Part shown: positions 9,807-22,810 of the stretch, in pieces
Layout: the number at the start of each line of letters is the position of its first letter
Position numbering within the stretch: the first letter of the stretch is position 1
Position numbers and translations under genes: made by a program
Notes under the pieces: generated by a model
What the model was told of the DNA's origin: nothing
The model's database searches: none
What the model saw: only the letters and a program-made list of their open reading frames with translations
NCBI GenBank assembly: GCA_016935975.1
Contig: JAFGPX010000110.1
Location: forward strand, 1-38,169
DNA from: Deltaproteobacteria bacterium
GTDB lineage: Bacteria > Myxococcota_A > Polyangia > Fen-1088
DNA: 38,169 nt
Direction: 5' to 3'

Positions 9807-12272
9807 ATGAGGCGCGCCTTTGCATTTGCCCTCCTGGTCCTGTTGCCGTGGCCACGCCCCTCGCTCGCCAGCGAGGGCATCGTTTCCGAAGAAGAAGAGG
9901 AGGAGGAATCGGGCGCGTCAGCGGAAGACGCTCCGCCGGCGAAGTCGGTGCCCGTGCCCTTCGACACAAAGTGGATCGAGCCCTGCTTCCCGTCCGGGCC
10001 GCAGAAGGCCGCCGTCGCGCGTTTCCGCAGCCGTGACTTCGCCGGCGCGGCCAAGGATCTCGGCCGCGTGCTGGCCAGGCTGCCCAAGAGCGCGCCCGAG
10101 CGCAACCCCTTGCGCCTGCTGCTCGCGCTCGCGCTCATGAACCAGCAGTCCTGGCAAGCCGCCGGCGAGATCTTCGAGGATCTCTGGTCGACGTACCCGC
10201 TGCTCGCGCCCTATCATGCCTACCACGCGGCTCGCTGCCGCCTGCGCGACGGCGACAGCGACGGCGCCTTCACCTGGCTGTCCCGTGTCCCATCGGGCAG
10301 CGTGATCGAACCCGACGCCGCGATGGTCAAGGTCGACGCCTTCGTGGCAACCAAGCGATGGGAGGATGTGGAAGCCGAGGTCGACACCTTCCTTGGCCGT
10401 TTTCCCAAGGGCCCGCGCCGCGCCGAGGCCATGTTTCTACGCGCCGAAGCGCTGCGGGAGCTGGGCCGCCCGCCTGCGGAAACCGCGGCCGCCTACCGCA
10501 AGGTGTGGGCCGAGTCGAAGGCGGAGACCTGGGCCGCGCGCGCCAACGAGAGACTGGAGACCTTGGCCCGGACCGTCCCACCCGAGCAGGCGAGCGCCCT
10601 CGTCACGCGCAGCATCGACGAGCAGCTCGCCCGCGGCATGATCCTCTACGACAGCTACCGAAACGCGGATGCCGAGGCCGTCTTCGCCGCTGCCCTGGCC
10701 ACGCCCGCCGTCGACAAGGCCACGCTGTGCAAGCTGCGCTTTCATCTGGCGCAATCGGTGTGGAAGCAGCGCCAGCGCCAGCGCGCGGCGCCGCTGTTCG
10801 ATCTCGCCATCGCCGACTGCCGCGCGGCCGACGACAAGAACCTCACGGTACGCTCGCTCTACCAGGGGGCGCGCTCCTACGCCACGGCCGGCGACAAGGA
10901 GAAGGCGCTGGCGCTCTACGCGCAGATCGAAAACGACTTCGCCAGGCATCGCCTGGCCGACGACGCGCGTCTGCGCGCGGCCGAGGTGTTCACCGGCTCC
11001 GGCAAGGAGGAGGAAGCCGCAAGACTGCTCGACGACCTCGCCGAAACCTACCCCAAGGGCGACATGGGTCCCGAGTCCCTGTGGCGGCTGGCCTTCGAGA
11101 GCTGGCGTGACCGCGCCTACGACAAGACGTTGGCCCGACTCGACGAGATACTGCGGCGCTACCCGCGCGAGGACATCTGGTACGCGGCGGGCCGCGCGCT
11201 CTACTGGAAAGCCCGGGTTCTGGAGAAAAAAGCGGAGCGCAAGAGGGCTCGCGCATCCTACGAGCGCGCCGTGCGCGAGTACCCGCTGTCGGTGTACACG
11301 CTCTTCTCGCTGGAGCGCATGCGCCGGTCCTTTCCCGAGGCCAGGACCAGCCTCATGCGCGAGCTGCGCAAGCGCATGGGCGACCTCGACAAGAAGTCGC
11401 CTTGGGATTTCGGAAAGCAGGCCGTGTTCGGCGAGCCCGGTTTCAGGCGGGCGGTGGAATTCGCGCGCCTTGGCCTGGGCAGCGAAGCGCGCCGCGAGCT
11501 TGGCAAGCTCGGCCTGCGCGCGGGCGGCGCCAAGAACGACGCGCTGCCGGCCAGGGGCCGCGAGGACGTGTACTGGATCACCGCCATCCTGCTCGATGCC
11601 AGCGGTCAGTGGCACGCCTCGCATTCCATCCCCCGCCGTACCTTGACCGGCTTCCGCCGCGACTACCCCAACGGGGGCCGACACGAGGCCGAATGGCGGC
11701 TCGCCTATCCCAAGGCCTTCCCCGACGAGGTGGCCAAGCACAGCCGAGCCAACGGCGTGCCCGAAGCCCTGCAATGGGCCATCATGCGCGAAGAAAGCTC
11801 TTTCTATCCGCGCGCCGAATCCTTCGCCAACGCCCTGGGCCTGACGCAGATGATGACCCGGACGGCGGGGCGCTTCGCGCCATGGCCGGTCACGCGCGAG
11901 GCGCTTTTCGATCCGGACAAGAACCTCGAGGTCGGCTCGAAGTTCCTCGCCTTCCTGCTCGCGCGCTACGGCGGCCAGGTGCCGCTGGTCATCAGCGGCT
12001 ACAACGCCGGCGAGGGCGCCGTGGATCGTTGGCTGCGCGAACGCGGCAACCTGGAGCTCGACGAGTTCATCGAGAGCATCCCCTACGACGAAACCCGCGG
12101 CTACACGAAACGCGTGCTGTCCAGCTTCCTCGCTTACAGCTGGCTCTACCAGCCCAAAAAGCCCGTGCCGCCGCTCGGCTTCGCCCTCAAGAAACCGGCG
12201 TCCGGCGACAAGAGCGGCAACAAGGCCAAGGTGGGCAAGAGCCGCAAGCAGGTTCCGCCGAAGAAGAAGTAG
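9807..12272 (+). CDS. Soluble lytic murein transglycosylase with TPR-like solenoid
   Basis: The predicted protein has 821 residues. The ATG at 9807 is preferred over an upstream in-frame ATG because it begins a signal peptide (MRRAFAFALLVLLPWP, then SLASEG). Residues about 50-620 form a helical TPR/superhelix region, as in Slt70. The SLT domain follows: WAIMREESSFYPRAES with catalytic Glu663, GLTQMM near 675-685, and ISGYNAGEGAVDRWL. It cleaves the MurNAc-GlcNAc bond of peptidoglycan in the periplasm with 1,6-anhydro ring formation. A Glu-rich patch follows the signal, and the C-terminus is Lys-rich. It converges on dnaJ with only 4 bases between the two stops. Confidence 0.93.
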   Translation: MRRAFAFALLVLLPWPRPSLASEGIVSEEEEEEESGASAEDAPPAKSVPVPFDTKWIEPCFPSGPQKAAVARFRSRDFAGAAKDLGRVLARLPKSAPERNPLRLLLALALMNQQSWQAAGEIFEDLWSTYPLLAPYHAYHAARCRLRDGDSDGAFTWLSRVPSGSVIEPDAAMVKVDAFVATKRWEDVEAEVDTFLGRFPKGPRRAEAMFLRAEALRELGRPPAETAAAYRKVWAESKAETWAARANERLETLARTVPPEQASALVTRSIDEQLARGMILYDSYRNADAEAVFAAALATPAVDKATLCKLRFHLAQSVWKQRQRQRAAPLFDLAIADCRAADDKNLTVRSLYQGARSYATAGDKEKALALYAQIENDFARHRLADDARLRAAEVFTGSGKEEEAARLLDDLAETYPKGDMGPESLWRLAFESWRDRAYDKTLARLDEILRRYPREDIWYAAGRALYWKARVLEKKAERKRARASYERAVREYPLSVYTLFSLERMRRSFPEARTSLMRELRKRMGDLDKKSPWDFGKQAVFGEPGFRRAVEFARLGLGSEARRELGKLGLRAGGAKNDALPARGREDVYWITAILLDASGQWHASHSIPRRTLTGFRRDYPNGGRHEAEWRLAYPKAFPDEVAKHSRANGVPEALQWAIMREESSFYPRAESFANALGLTQMMTRTAGRFAPWPVTREALFDPDKNLEVGSKFLAFLLARYGGQVPLVISGYNAGEGAVDRWLRERGNLELDEFIESIPYDETRGYTKRVLSSFLAYSWLYQPKKPVPPLGFALKKPASGDKSGNKAKVGKSRKQVPPKKK

Positions 12273-18559: not shown

Positions 18560-19327
18560 CTATAGCTTGCCGAGACCCGCCAACGGATCGTTGTCGAGTC
18601 TCTTCTTCCGGGCGATGGTGGGGACATCGGCGGACTTGGGAGCGGCTGGCTCCGCCCGGGCACGACGGGCGGCCCGCCCCGAGGACCTGCTGCGCACGGA
18701 GCGCGCGGCGAGCTTCGGAGCGGGCTTTTCCGGTTTGCTCTCGACCACCGGCGCGCTGGGAGGGGCCACCGCCGGCACGGCCGCCAGCGCCGCCTTGAGC
18801 TTGTCCTCGCACTGGCGAAGGTTGTTGCGCGACTGGGCCTCTGCCTTGGCCGCCAGCCCGACAGCCTGGAGACGCTCCTCCTCAATCCGCTTGATTGCTG
18901 CGTCCTTGGCCGCAAGGAGGAGTTGGGTGTCGCTCTGCAGCTTCATGTACCCGACACCGCCCGCGCCCAAGAGCAGCGCGGTCACGAACACCGCAGCCTT
19001 GTAGGAGGTCTTGGTCTGGATCACCGGAGGCGCAACTGGCGCCATTCCATAGGCCGACGGCCCGCCAGCGAAATCCCCCATGCCCGCAAATCCGGCAGGG
19101 CGGCTAGCCGCGGGTACCGACGCAAGCGGGACCTGACGCGACGGAGCCAGCGACGGCACGAGCGTCGGCGGCGGCGTCATCTGGTCGGACGCCGGATCGA
19201 CTGCCAACGCCGCTGCACGACCTGCACCGACCACTGCCCGCGATTGGGTCTGCCGGGTGATCCTCTCATGCTTAAGCTTCCGCAGTTCATTGAGCGACGT
19301 GACTACGGAATCCTCGTTTTCCATCAT
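18560..19327 (-). CDS. Single-pass membrane hypothetical protein
   Basis: The predicted protein has 255 residues beginning with two ATGs (19327 and 19324), preceded by AAGGAGAA at good spacing. The cytoplasmic start, ENEDSVVTSLNELRKLKHER, resembles the short N-terminal tag of many myxobacterial membrane proteins (from memory). A Pro/Ala-rich linker leads to one transmembrane helix at about residues 110-130 (AAVFVTALLLGAGGVGYM). A coiled coil follows at about 135-180 (LAAKDAAIKRIEEERLQAVG), then an Ala/Pro/Arg-rich tail ending NDPLAGLGKL. No enzymatic domain is seen. The C-terminal region could lie outside the membrane. Function unknown. Confidence 0.8.
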   Translation of the reverse strand: MMENEDSVVTSLNELRKLKHERITRQTQSRAVVGAGRAAALAVDPASDQMTPPPTLVPSLAPSRQVPLASVPAASRPAGFAGMGDFAGGPSAYGMAPVAPPVIQTKTSYKAAVFVTALLLGAGGVGYMKLQSDTQLLLAAKDAAIKRIEEERLQAVGLAAKAEAQSRNNLRQCEDKLKAALAAVPAVAPPSAPVVESKPEKPAPKLAARSVRSRSSGRAARRARAEPAAPKSADVPTIARKKRLDNDPLAGLGKL

Positions 19328-19507
19328 GCGCCATTCTCCTTCGCGCGAAATCGTCGGAACTCGAGTCGTTGCCAGGATCTTCTTCTAAGCTCTGGACCCG
19401 TGTCGGCGGGAAGACGCGAGTCGTACACCCACCGCGCCGAGCCTGCACATACGCACACCTTACCATCGAATCCCTCAGACTCCAGCCCGGAAAAACCGCC
19501 GCGACGT

Positions 19508-20722
19508 CTATTTTGCGGACCGAGCCAATGGAAACAGACCGCGCCACAGGCCGAGCCAGGCGGGCAGGCAGAACGCAATGATGGGCCAGTTGTCCTGGTT
19601 CATGCCCGGAAGCAGCTTGCAGACCATCCCGGCCGCTGCGAACACGGCCAGCGAGAGTGCGATGGCGCATGCCCTGCGCGTAGCGCGGGGCCACCCCAGG
19701 GCCACGCCGATGCCATAGCCGAAGAGCACGACGGCCCACGGGCCGAGCTGCAGGATGTTGGCATTGGCGAAAGCGGCGCGGTGGTTGGTGAAGGCCCACA
19801 AGCACACCATGACCAGCCCCAAGAAGCCGAAGCTCGCACCCGTTGCAGAAGTGGCGGTCCCGAGAACGACTCTGGCCGCGGCACTGCGCCTGGCCAGGCG
19901 GCCGAGCAGCAGCATCGACCCGCCGAACGCAACGCCAAGCAGCAGGAAGTAGACGCTCCAGTCGGGAGGCACGGCGGGCTTTTCGGGGCGCACAGCACGA
20001 TGCAGGACGGCTTCGGACTTCACGAGTGGCTTCTCCCCGCTGTCGGCCGGCACGCGCGCCGCACGCAACAAGTCGGCGAGCCTATCGGGCAGAAACGCCT
20101 CTTCCCAGCGAGTGATGGGCACGTCGGCACCGCGTCCCAGGCCGAGGTAGAGCCCCACGTATTCGGGCCACAGGTCAGCCACCATGCGCAACGCGTGGCC
20201 CCGAAAGGTCAGGGCCGCGGCCCCCTGACCCGCTTGGCGCACCCGGCCACCAACCGCGCGATCCACGGCATCCCTCACTCTGGTGGAGCAGTTGTCGTAG
20301 AAGTAGTCGTACAGGTATTCGCGGTTCTCCGGCCGCGCATTCACGCGCAGGGCCTGCCACAGCGCCGATTTCTGTGCCGCAGTCAGCTCCAGATCCTGCG
20401 CTAGGATCGAGCGGTTGGCCGCCGCGTATGACGCCACGGTTTCCTCGAAAGTGGACACGGACAGCCAGTAGTAGAAATTGCCACGCAAGAACTTCGGTAT
20501 CAGAGCCGGGGAATCGAAGGCGAAGGTGCCGAAGTTGTAGACCCACCCTTTTCCCTGCTTGGGTTTCACGAGAAGGGCGTTGTGCCCGAACTTGAAGAAG
20601 GGATGATCCCCCGGGCCGAAGGTGAGCGCCGAGACCGTCAGCTCGTCGCCGGGCTCGGCGCGCGCGGCGCGCTCCCCGGTCGCGAAAGAGAGCAAGGCGA
20701 GCAGGCTTGCGAGCCGGCGCAT
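19508..20722 (-). CDS. DUF4105/Lnb-type membrane protein with periplasmic Cys-His domain
   Basis: The predicted protein has 404 residues; the ATG at 20722 begins a signal peptide (MRRLASLLALLSFATGERAA). Residues about 20-285 match the DUF4105 domain, now called the Lnb N-terminal periplasmic domain: SALTFGPGDHPFFKFGHNAL with His47, VYNFGTFAF, and YFYDNCSTRVRDAVD with Cys145. The Cys-His pair recalls the NlpC/P60 fold and the catalytic pair of Lnb, a lipoprotein N-acyltransferase of Gram-positive bacteria. About five membrane helices follow from about residue 285. Role in lipoprotein maturation is inference from the family; substrate here is unknown. It lies 17 bases past the glutaminyl cyclase gene on the same strand. 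Confidence 0.85.
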   Translation of the reverse strand: MRRLASLLALLSFATGERAARAEPGDELTVSALTFGPGDHPFFKFGHNALLVKPKQGKGWVYNFGTFAFDSPALIPKFLRGNFYYWLSVSTFEETVASYAAANRSILAQDLELTAAQKSALWQALRVNARPENREYLYDYFYDNCSTRVRDAVDRAVGGRVRQAGQGAAALTFRGHALRMVADLWPEYVGLYLGLGRGADVPITRWEEAFLPDRLADLLRAARVPADSGEKPLVKSEAVLHRAVRPEKPAVPPDWSVYFLLLGVAFGGSMLLLGRLARRSAAARVVLGTATSATGASFGFLGLVMVCLWAFTNHRAAFANANILQLGPWAVVLFGYGIGVALGWPRATRRACAIALSLAVFAAAGMVCKLLPGMNQDNWPIIAFCLPAWLGLWRGLFPLARSAK

Positions 20723-20739
20723 GCGCGGTTTTCGCGTTC

Positions 20740-21576
20740 TCACTTGCCTGCCGCCTTGGCCACGACAACGATCTCCACTTCGAAGAGACGGGGCCACAGT
20801 TTTCCCGTGACGAGCAGATGCCCGGTGCCCGGCATCTCGGCGATGCCATTGAGGACGTCGGCCCGGGCGGCCTCCGTGGGATCGAGCAAGCCCGAGGCTT
20901 CGATCCATCCCGTCACTTCGCCGGTCCGGGCGTCGATGCGGGCGATGTGATGGTCTTGCCAGACGTTGGCGTAGACGACGTGATCCGTGCACTCGAGCTC
21001 GTTCAGGTTGGAAAGCGGCTTTCCGGCCAGCCTGACCCTGATCTCGCCCTCCTTGGCGAAGGTCAGGGGATTCCGCCGGGTCAGTCGGTCGCTTCCGTCG
21101 CTCATGAGCAGATGGCGGCCGTCGAAGCAGAGCCCCCAGCCCTCACCATCGTAGGCAAGCTCCGCCTGTTTCTTCAACGTCGACAGATCCCACACCAGAA
21201 CCTTGTGGTTCTTCCACGTCAGTTGAAACAGGCGCTGGCCGACACGGGCAAGGCCCTCGCCGAAGAGCTCCGGCGGCAACCGCGCCTGCTGCTCCACCTG
21301 GCCACTCGCCAGATCCACGCGTCGCAACGACGAACGCGCGTACAGGCCCGTACTCTCGTAGACCTTCCCGTCGAGGAACAGCAGCCCCTGCGTGAACGCC
21401 GAGGGATCGTGGGGATAGGTGCGCACCACGCGAAGGCGCAGGGCCTGAGGAGACGTCGGTCCCCGCCCGGCCGACTTGGCGCACACGCTCGCAGCGGCCG
21501 TCGAGAGAAGGACGGCAGCAACGGGCAAGCCACGCGTGACGGCGCGGCGGGATTGCGGCGACATGGACTGCATCAT
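20740..21576 (-). CDS. Glutaminyl-peptide cyclotransferase (beta-propeller type)
   Basis: The predicted protein has 278 residues from the ATG at 21576; other in-frame ATGs lie at 21573 and 21564. An export signal is likely (SRRAVTRGLPVAAVLLST), with a loosely twin-arginine-like pair. The body has the plant/bacterial glutamine-cyclotransferase pattern: TYPHDPSAFTQGLLF, YESTGLY, LFGEGLARVG, YDGEGWGLCFDG, LNELECTDHVVYANVW, GWIEASGLL, DVLNGIA. The enzyme converts N-terminal Gln (or Glu) of exported peptides to pyroglutamate, blocking aminopeptidases. It sits 20 bases after aat and 17 before the Lnb-type gene, so the three are probably one operon. Confidence 0.9.
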   Translation of the reverse strand: MMQSMSPQSRRAVTRGLPVAAVLLSTAAASVCAKSAGRGPTSPQALRLRVVRTYPHDPSAFTQGLLFLDGKVYESTGLYARSSLRRVDLASGQVEQQARLPPELFGEGLARVGQRLFQLTWKNHKVLVWDLSTLKKQAELAYDGEGWGLCFDGRHLLMSDGSDRLTRRNPLTFAKEGEIRVRLAGKPLSNLNELECTDHVVYANVWQDHHIARIDARTGEVTGWIEASGLLDPTEAARADVLNGIAEMPGTGHLLVTGKLWPRLFEVEIVVVAKAAGK

Positions 21577-21596
21577 AGCCGACGTGGCCCGCTGGA

Positions 21597-22265
21597 TCAG
21601 AAGCGAACCCGAAGCGCGAGCGCCTCGCGCAGCCGACGCAGAAACTCGACGCGAGGGATTTCCCGCGCCCCCAGGTTCGCCAGGTGTGGGTTCATCACCT
21701 GCGCGTCGAGAAGCCCAAACCCGCGCGCGCGCAAGTGCGAGACAAGATGCGCGAGTGCCGCTTTCGAGGCGTCGTCGCGCCGATGAAACATGGATTCGCC
21801 GCCGAAGAAGCCACCCAGCGCAACCCCGTAGAGGCCCCCCACCGGCTCGTCTCCCTCGTAGACCTCGACACTGTGGGCCTCGCCTCGCCGGTGAAGCTCG
21901 CAGTACGACGAAACGAAGTCCTCGGTGATCCAAGTCGCCGGCCGGTCAGGCGTCGGTTCCGCGCAGCGCCTGATGGTGCCTTCGAAGTCACGGTCGAGAT
22001 GGAAGGTCCAGCCTGCCTTGCGAATGCGCTTGCGAAGGCTACGGGGTTGCTGGAACGAGCCAAGCTCGAAGATGGCTCGAGGATCCGGACACCACCAGGT
22101 AATGAGGGGGTCGGAGGACCAGGGGAAAACCCCCATGCGGTACGCCTCTTCCAACACATCGGGATGAAGCGTTCCCCCGACAGTGACCAGTCCGTCGTCT
22201 GCGGTTAGGCGCTTGCGTCGCATCTCGTCAAGAAGCGCGGTTTTCGAACGTGGGGGTCTAGGCAT
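21597..22265 (-). CDS. aat: Leucyl/phenylalanyl-tRNA-protein transferase
   Basis: The predicted protein has 222 residues. The ATG at 22265 is chosen because AAGGA lies about 7 bases upstream; an upstream TTG (22283) is less likely. Family motifs are EAYRMGVFPW, WWCPDPRAIF, ITEDFVSSYCELHRRG, GGLYGVALGGFFGGESMF and the C-terminal NPHLANLGAREIPRVEF. The enzyme transfers Leu or Phe from aminoacyl-tRNA to proteins starting with Arg or Lys, marking them for ClpAP (N-degron pathway), in the cytoplasm. clpS and clpA, frequent neighbours elsewhere, are not here. Downstream are the glutaminyl cyclase and Lnb-type genes. Confidence 0.95.
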   Translation of the reverse strand: MPRPPRSKTALLDEMRRKRLTADDGLVTVGGTLHPDVLEEAYRMGVFPWSSDPLITWWCPDPRAIFELGSFQQPRSLRKRIRKAGWTFHLDRDFEGTIRRCAEPTPDRPATWITEDFVSSYCELHRRGEAHSVEVYEGDEPVGGLYGVALGGFFGGESMFHRRDDASKAALAHLVSHLRARGFGLLDAQVMNPHLANLGAREIPRVEFLRRLREALALRVRF

Positions 22266-22284
22266 CTCGTCCTTGTAATACAAC

Positions 22285-22301
22285 GCGCCATGGTCTGGCG
22301 C
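22285..22301. repeat. Inverted repeat upstream of aat
   Basis: GCGCCA, TGGTC, TGGCGC is a perfect 6-bp inverted repeat 20 bases upstream of the aat ATG in the divergent intergenic region. It is operator- or hairpin-like; nothing identifies a regulator. Confidence 0.25.
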
Positions 22302-22414
22302 ATAACCCCAATAAGAAATGCGGGGCCAAACGAGAAAGTTTTCGACTTCCGTTACGTCTTAGGTAGTATGCCGCACCGAAGCGGTCTAGCAGCGAACAAC
22401 CCAGGAGAGAAGAA

Positions 22415-22810
22415 ATGACAAAGAAGTTAGCAGCAATAGTCTACGTATTTTCACTCGCAGCATTCGGCTGCGGCAGCGACAGCGGCACCCCGAAGAAGGA
22501 CGCCGGCAAGGATGCTCCCGTCGGTACCGACACGATGGTCATCCCGGACGTTCCCATCCAGCCCGATGCCCCGATCAAACCCGAAGTAGGTGCCGACAAG
22601 CCGATGACGCCCGACCTGGTGCCGGCGGTCGATATGACTCCCAAGGTTGATGTCGAGATCCGGATCGACAGCGTGACCACCCCAGTCGACGGTGGCGAAG
22701 ACGCGACCATTACTCCACCCATCGACGGCGGCGCTGTCGACGCCGAGGCGTCCGAGGCCGGCGCGGCCGTGGACGCTGGCACGCCGGTAGACGCCGAGTC
22801 CGCTGGCTAG
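22415..22810 (+). CDS. Asp/Pro-rich lipoprotein
   Basis: The predicted protein has 131 residues from an ATG with AGGAGAG upstream. The start MTKKLAAIVYVFSLAAFGC is a lipoprotein signal ending at Cys19. The mature part is a disordered, acidic run of Asp, Pro, Val, Ala and Gly with PD and DA repeats and no visible fold. Such acidic tails are typical of lipoproteins in Polyangia-like genomes (from memory). The first 15 codons use AT-rich triplets compared with the rest. It may serve as a surface linker or an anchor fragment. It is followed by a 34-bp palindrome. Function unknown. Confidence 0.8.
   Translation: MTKKLAAIVYVFSLAAFGCGSDSGTPKKDAGKDAPVGTDTMVIPDVPIQPDAPIKPEVGADKPMTPDLVPAVDMTPKVDVEIRIDSVTTPVDGGEDATITPPIDGGAVDAEASEAGAAVDAGTPVDAESAG

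Follow-up and report, generated by a model that had tools for sequence, protein, structure and literature searches.

A gene at positions 19508-20722 of the 38,169-nucleotide stretch of DNA analysed here (the window) encodes a DUF4105 protein which, in the reading that we lean towards, is an Lnb-type lipoprotein N-acyltransferase that replaces Lnt and is paired with a glutaminyl cyclase (QC) capping other exported proteins, with the adjoining aat gene being incidental. The minus strand carries all three genes in a row, aat at 21597-22265, QC at 20740-21576 and DUF4105 at 19508-20722, with intergenic gaps of 20 bp between aat and QC (21577-21596) and 17 bp between QC and DUF4105 (20723-20739). 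Each is a full-length member of a named family, with catalytic residues intact where checked, and the family assignments and gene order given in a first-pass annotation of the sequence were confirmed by profile matches and ORF positions. A promoter and terminator search of 19200-22500 yielded nothing informative.

The DUF4105 product is a predicted membrane protein of 404 aa, consisting of a signal sequence, a periplasmic His-Cys domain and putative C-terminal membrane helices. It passed the Pfam domain Lnb_N (PF13387) with 73.2 bits against a gathering score of 22.2. Since it scored 160.9 bits over residues 11-337 against the NCBIfam Lnb equivalog NF051878, below the 550-bit cut-off, and 19.1 bits against the Lnb transmembrane model PF25221, below the required 25.2, we classify it as Lnb-like or Lnb-type and not as a certified Lnb. 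In an AlphaFold model (pLDDT 94), long hydrophobic C-terminal helices (residues 256-400, window 19523-19957) come after a mixed alpha/beta domain. From alignments, the putative catalytic pair of a predicted permuted NlpC/P60-type domain (20288-20584) is His47 (20582-20584) and Cys145 (20288-20290), both of which are invariant in alignments of 21 and of 28 relatives; the latter alignment also revealed H314, N320 and Q376 as invariant residues in the helical region. No close solved structure was found by sequence search, nor any by fold in the PDB at E <= 0.001, where the comparison returned picornavirus 2A proteins at E about 2 (prob 0.47-0.57, TMt about 0.5).

Experiments have shown DUF4105 to be the lipoprotein N-acyltransferase of Bacteroides, named Lnb; in three genomic contexts its displacement by Lnt, and hence a role common to both, was predicted (PMC12994826). 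The Bacteroides protein used for comparison here exceeds the Lnb equivalog cut-off with 667 bits, and has H47, C145, H314 and N320 in common with the window protein, as well as the signal sequence, the periplasmic His-Cys domain and the putative C-terminal membrane helices. Presence in genomes without Lnt is another trait in common with Lnb. The two proteins differ in that identity is only about 27%, in the low equivalog score of the window protein, and in their surroundings: the Myxococcota gene adjoins QC, whereas the genes flanking DUF4105 in Bacteroides finegoldii are not found beside it. We know of no biochemistry on members of the DUF4105 branch to which the window protein belongs.

The QC (278 aa, 20740-21576) is of the plant type, i.e. 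type I with a beta-propeller, and carries an N-terminal signal sequence. It matched PF05096 over the full length of the profile (positions 6-249 of 249; 314 bits, E 7e-94) and, in the PDB, the entries 3mbr (E 1e-63), 3nol, 3nok and papaya 2faw, the closest being solved bacterial QCs. The papaya active-site residues Q24, E69, N155 and K225, taken from PMC5837995 (where the first position is Q/E24), align with Q63 (21388-21390), E107 (21256-21258), N192 (21001-21003) and K259 (20800-20802), so that all four are kept within 20800-21390. Full-length PF05096 and these four residues are thus common to the window QC and known type I QCs (3MBR, 3NOK, 2FAW); what sets it apart is the adjoining Lnb-type gene and the signal sequence. 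In sister genera the latter bears a canonical lipobox (LAAC, LVAC, LSAC or LGGC), while in the genus of the window it ends (21470-21576) in a non-canonical ASVC with V at -1. Judging from these motifs, lipidation of QC has apparently been lost in this genus, signal peptidase I cleavage being more likely than the lipoprotein route, and in the sister genera QC would itself be among the lipoprotein clients.

In 18 genomes of the Myxococcota family of the window, which is uncultured, DUF4105 was found in every one, all its proteins forming one clade, and QC in 12. In each of these 12, representing four genera, QC is situated directly upstream of DUF4105 and in the same direction, counting one genome (G192) whose QC is split over two contig ends. 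Since no QC-bearing genome of the family lacks it, the adjacency is more than chance, and constitutes a real but family-limited pair, which may trace to a single event. Where QC is lacking (six members), DUF4105 occupies other places, in most cases close to genes for an rsmB-like methyltransferase and aminopeptidase P. Among the QC-bearing genomes, G194 additionally has a second, unlinked QC gene (L083; G194:C1:109778-110491), closer to QCs from another family within the class, and both G194 and G198 have two predicted lipoprotein genes beside or upstream of the pair (L089:3891-7150, L093:1202-4461), for which there was no Pfam match over the cut-off.

A neutral origin of the pairing, with an Lnb-type DUF4105 and an ordinary QC whose adjacency is an inherited accident kept without functional reason, is a serious if still tentative alternative, and draws its strength from the wider surveys. 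Out of 191 genomes of the phylum, all with a completeness of 85% or more, DUF4105 was present in 85 and QC in 25 (about 20 of them strong matches). Among the matches listed, and by contig, any two of aat, QC and DUF4105 were found within 10 kb of each other in the window genome only; many of the assemblies are fragmented, making single negatives weak, although the overall picture stands. QC and DUF4105 were both present but unlinked in six genomes (G066, G057, G156, G121, G160 and G218). A wider scan covered one genome per species for 84,980 species, from which the best 80 of 515 DUF4105 loci were analysed, distributed over Myxococcota, Gemmatimonadota, Planctomycetota, Nitrospirota and Gammaproteobacteria. 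QC lay beside DUF4105 in six of these 80, all from the family of the window, and neither QC nor aat was found in flanks of up to 10 kb a side in any of the 74 loci outside it. What argues against mere inheritance is the persistence of the pair in the two most diverged genera of the family, represented by G198 and G194 (DUF4105 identities to the window protein of 55% and 46%, respectively), where it is the sole survivor of nine local gene pairs, all other neighboring pairs tested being broken, and its retention in two different flanking settings.

The proposal that DUF4105 stands in for Lnt draws on a second line of evidence, i.e. the distribution of Lnt itself. Searching the window genome by family and by stretches gave no LNT_N match and no Lnt-level match to TIGR00546, although at 94% completeness the lack could be due to an assembly gap. 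Nine of the 11 QC-bearing relatives within the family also lack Lnt. Over the 191 genomes of the phylum, DUF4105 occurs in 22 of 23 Lnt-negative genomes (three of the 23 counted as such because they were missing from the positives listed) vs 63 of 168 Lnt-positive ones (Fisher p 5e-8), an association which weakens to p 0.03 when one large Lnt-less family is left out. Another observation concerns f18, a family of the phylum (G008, G013, G018, G023 and others) that is Lnt-less except for G146; its genomes each carry between one and four DUF4105 genes, and some of these lie in open frames about 1000 aa long.

Within the family of the window, its own type of Lnt (genera g137, g139 and g140; 56-90% mutual identity) was found only in QC-lacking genomes, namely in five out of six. 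A clean rule by which QC is present where Lnt is absent was nevertheless rejected, as it is broken by G191 and G192, two QC-bearing genomes of the window's own genus. These carry a divergent Lnt (195 and 186 bits; L103:1248-2411 and L104:5219-6394), 86% identical between the two and 30-36% identical to the other Lnts of the family, which seems to have been acquired separately or to be an old paralogue. With this divergent Lnt present, DUF4105 is not the only enzyme in every genome. QC and Lnt also co-occur elsewhere in the phylum. Furthermore, the QC-bearing genera largely cluster together, and the pattern of QC-bearing, Lnt-lacking genomes may therefore represent one or two events and not independent functional evidence.

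In Escherichia coli, lnt occupies the slot after corC in the gene order miaB-phoH-ybeY-corC. The same cluster contains DUF4105 in the Rhodanobacteraceae genera Dyella, Luteibacter and Rhodanobacter, and likewise in a related MAG (L179, L180, L201, L203-L205; about 10001-11200), and in the three named genera it is located directly after corC. These proteins belong to the same branch as that of the window, at 34-38% identity, and have the same full-length architecture. Searches of four genomes from Luteibacter and Rhodanobacter gave no Lnt-level match, and that of the Dyella genome a single one below threshold, at 88 bits. DUF4105 abuts a genuine lnt in a Longimicrobiales MAG (L184:9908-12705), within an rpmE-prfA-prmC neighborhood, which in some other Gemmatimonadota contains DUF4105 without an adjacent lnt. 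DUF4105 has both its proposed reaction and its genomic niche in common with Lnt, whose fold is that of the CN-hydrolase family and unrelated to DUF4105. Since no Lnt was detected and the lnt operon slot is occupied by DUF4105 in relatives, the Lnb-type role already suggested by the first-pass annotation is independently supported, and stands.

A stronger version of the pairing, in which QC and the Lnb-type acyltransferase form a two-gene unit that caps the N-termini of both classes of exported proteins (lipoproteins and the products of signal peptidase I), and whose formation accompanied the loss of the family's ancestral Lnt, strikes us as unlikely. Somewhat more doubtful again is that DUF4105, instead of being a lipoprotein N-acyltransferase, is some other permuted NlpC/P60 enzyme, e.g. 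a peptidase, a phospholipase or a transferase for another substrate. The score below the Lnb equivalog cut-off and the lack of a close solved structure in the searches would fit such an enzyme, as would the breadth of the superfamily, which takes in LRAT-like and antibacterial-effector members (PMC12994826). On the other hand, the complementarity with Lnt, the lnt operon slot taken by relatives of the same architecture, and the conserved residues in common with the Bacteroides Lnb all point to lipoprotein acylation.

The third gene, aat (21597-22265), encodes a leucyl/phenylalanyl-tRNA-protein transferase of 222 aa, as evidenced by matches to PF03588 (213 bits), to the equivalog TIGR00667 (185.8 bits, cut-off 143.55) and to the solved Aat structures 2z3k, 2dps and 2cxa (E about 1e-43). 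Aat works in the cytosol with ClpS as an enzyme of the N-degron machinery, the proteins it tags being destined for ClpS/ClpAP decay. A ClpS gene is present in the window genome, on another contig than aat. With 166 of the 191 genomes carrying it, aat is widespread in the phylum; it is linked to QC and DUF4105 only in the genus of the window and in the sister genus g141. There the flanking genes (pilin-like, formyltransferase, trmA-like and CBM9) are equally conserved, and the link is thus plain synteny; in the genera g138 and g142, aat is not beside the pair. We therefore judge aat to be ordinary here, a neighbor with no part in the pair.

That all three genes jointly serve protein N-terminal processing as a single functional set, as the first-pass annotation had it, is very improbable in spite of the in-line arrangement with gaps of 17-20 bp and the order kept in two genera: the compartments differ and the outcomes are opposite, with aat leading to cytosolic decay while QC and DUF4105 act on exported proteins, and where aat is linked the entire neighborhood is conserved to the same degree. 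Linkage of the three beyond close relatives, the lack of which had been named beforehand as a ground for giving up that claim, was found neither in the 191 genomes, among the matches listed, nor in the 74 outside loci from the best 80 of 515. The single set is accordingly rejected as far as the cytosolic aat is concerned, with its unlinked ClpS and synteny-based linkage, and is reduced to the QC-DUF4105 pair, seen across four genera and two settings but limited to one family.

Under the preferred reading of an Lnt-replacing DUF4105 paired with QC, we infer both acyl transfer in the window organism and a functional reason for the pairing. DUF4105 would be situated in the inner membrane facing the periplasm, where a papain-like site made up of His47 and Cys145 would take an acyl chain from a phospholipid to form a thioester on the cysteine. 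The chain would then be passed on to a lipoprotein, at the free amino group on its N-terminal cysteine, which is the job otherwise done by Lnt. QC would be a separate exported enzyme, converting exposed N-terminal glutamine to pyroglutamate on a minority of signal peptidase I substrates. A plausible reason for the pairing is that each enzyme would mask the free alpha-amino group on proteins just exported.

Bacteroidetes likewise combine a periplasmic QC with an Lnb-type enzyme. In these bacteria, QC caps most signal peptidase I products and glutamine is found at +1 of about 71% of the substrates (PMC5837995, PMC10653852). In our family, +1 glutamine amounted to 0-15% of predicted substrates, as counted with a crude home-made signal-peptide scorer, run without a positive control on about 0.3-0.5 Mb from each of four genomes. 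The QC-bearing genomes had 3 of 32 (9%; the window genome, G000), at most 1 of 30 (3%; G206) and 5 of 33 (15%; G194), vs 3 of 43 (7%) in the QC-lacking G196. With these figures showing no excess of +1 glutamine in the four genomes, at least by the crude scorer, a Bacteroidetes-like Q-rule is unsupported and was rejected for this family; QC substrates probably make up a minority of the exported proteins.

The enzyme families involved were already known and the finding is modest, its more useful part being the added evidence that this branch of DUF4105 replaces Lnt. Replacement of the often essential Lnt by an Lnb-type enzyme would thereby extend to a Myxococcota family, with same-branch relatives in Gemmatimonadota and Rhodanobacteraceae. 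The Rhodanobacteraceae locus offers cultured hosts, e.g. Luteibacter, for direct functional study of DUF4105, and the analysis tells the conserved QC-Lnb pair apart from aat, an incidental neighbor. Lastly, a short Asp/Pro/Ala-rich predicted lipoprotein, with a lipobox before CGSDSG, is encoded at 22415-22810 of the window; its gene is divergent from aat and adjoins it genus-wide.
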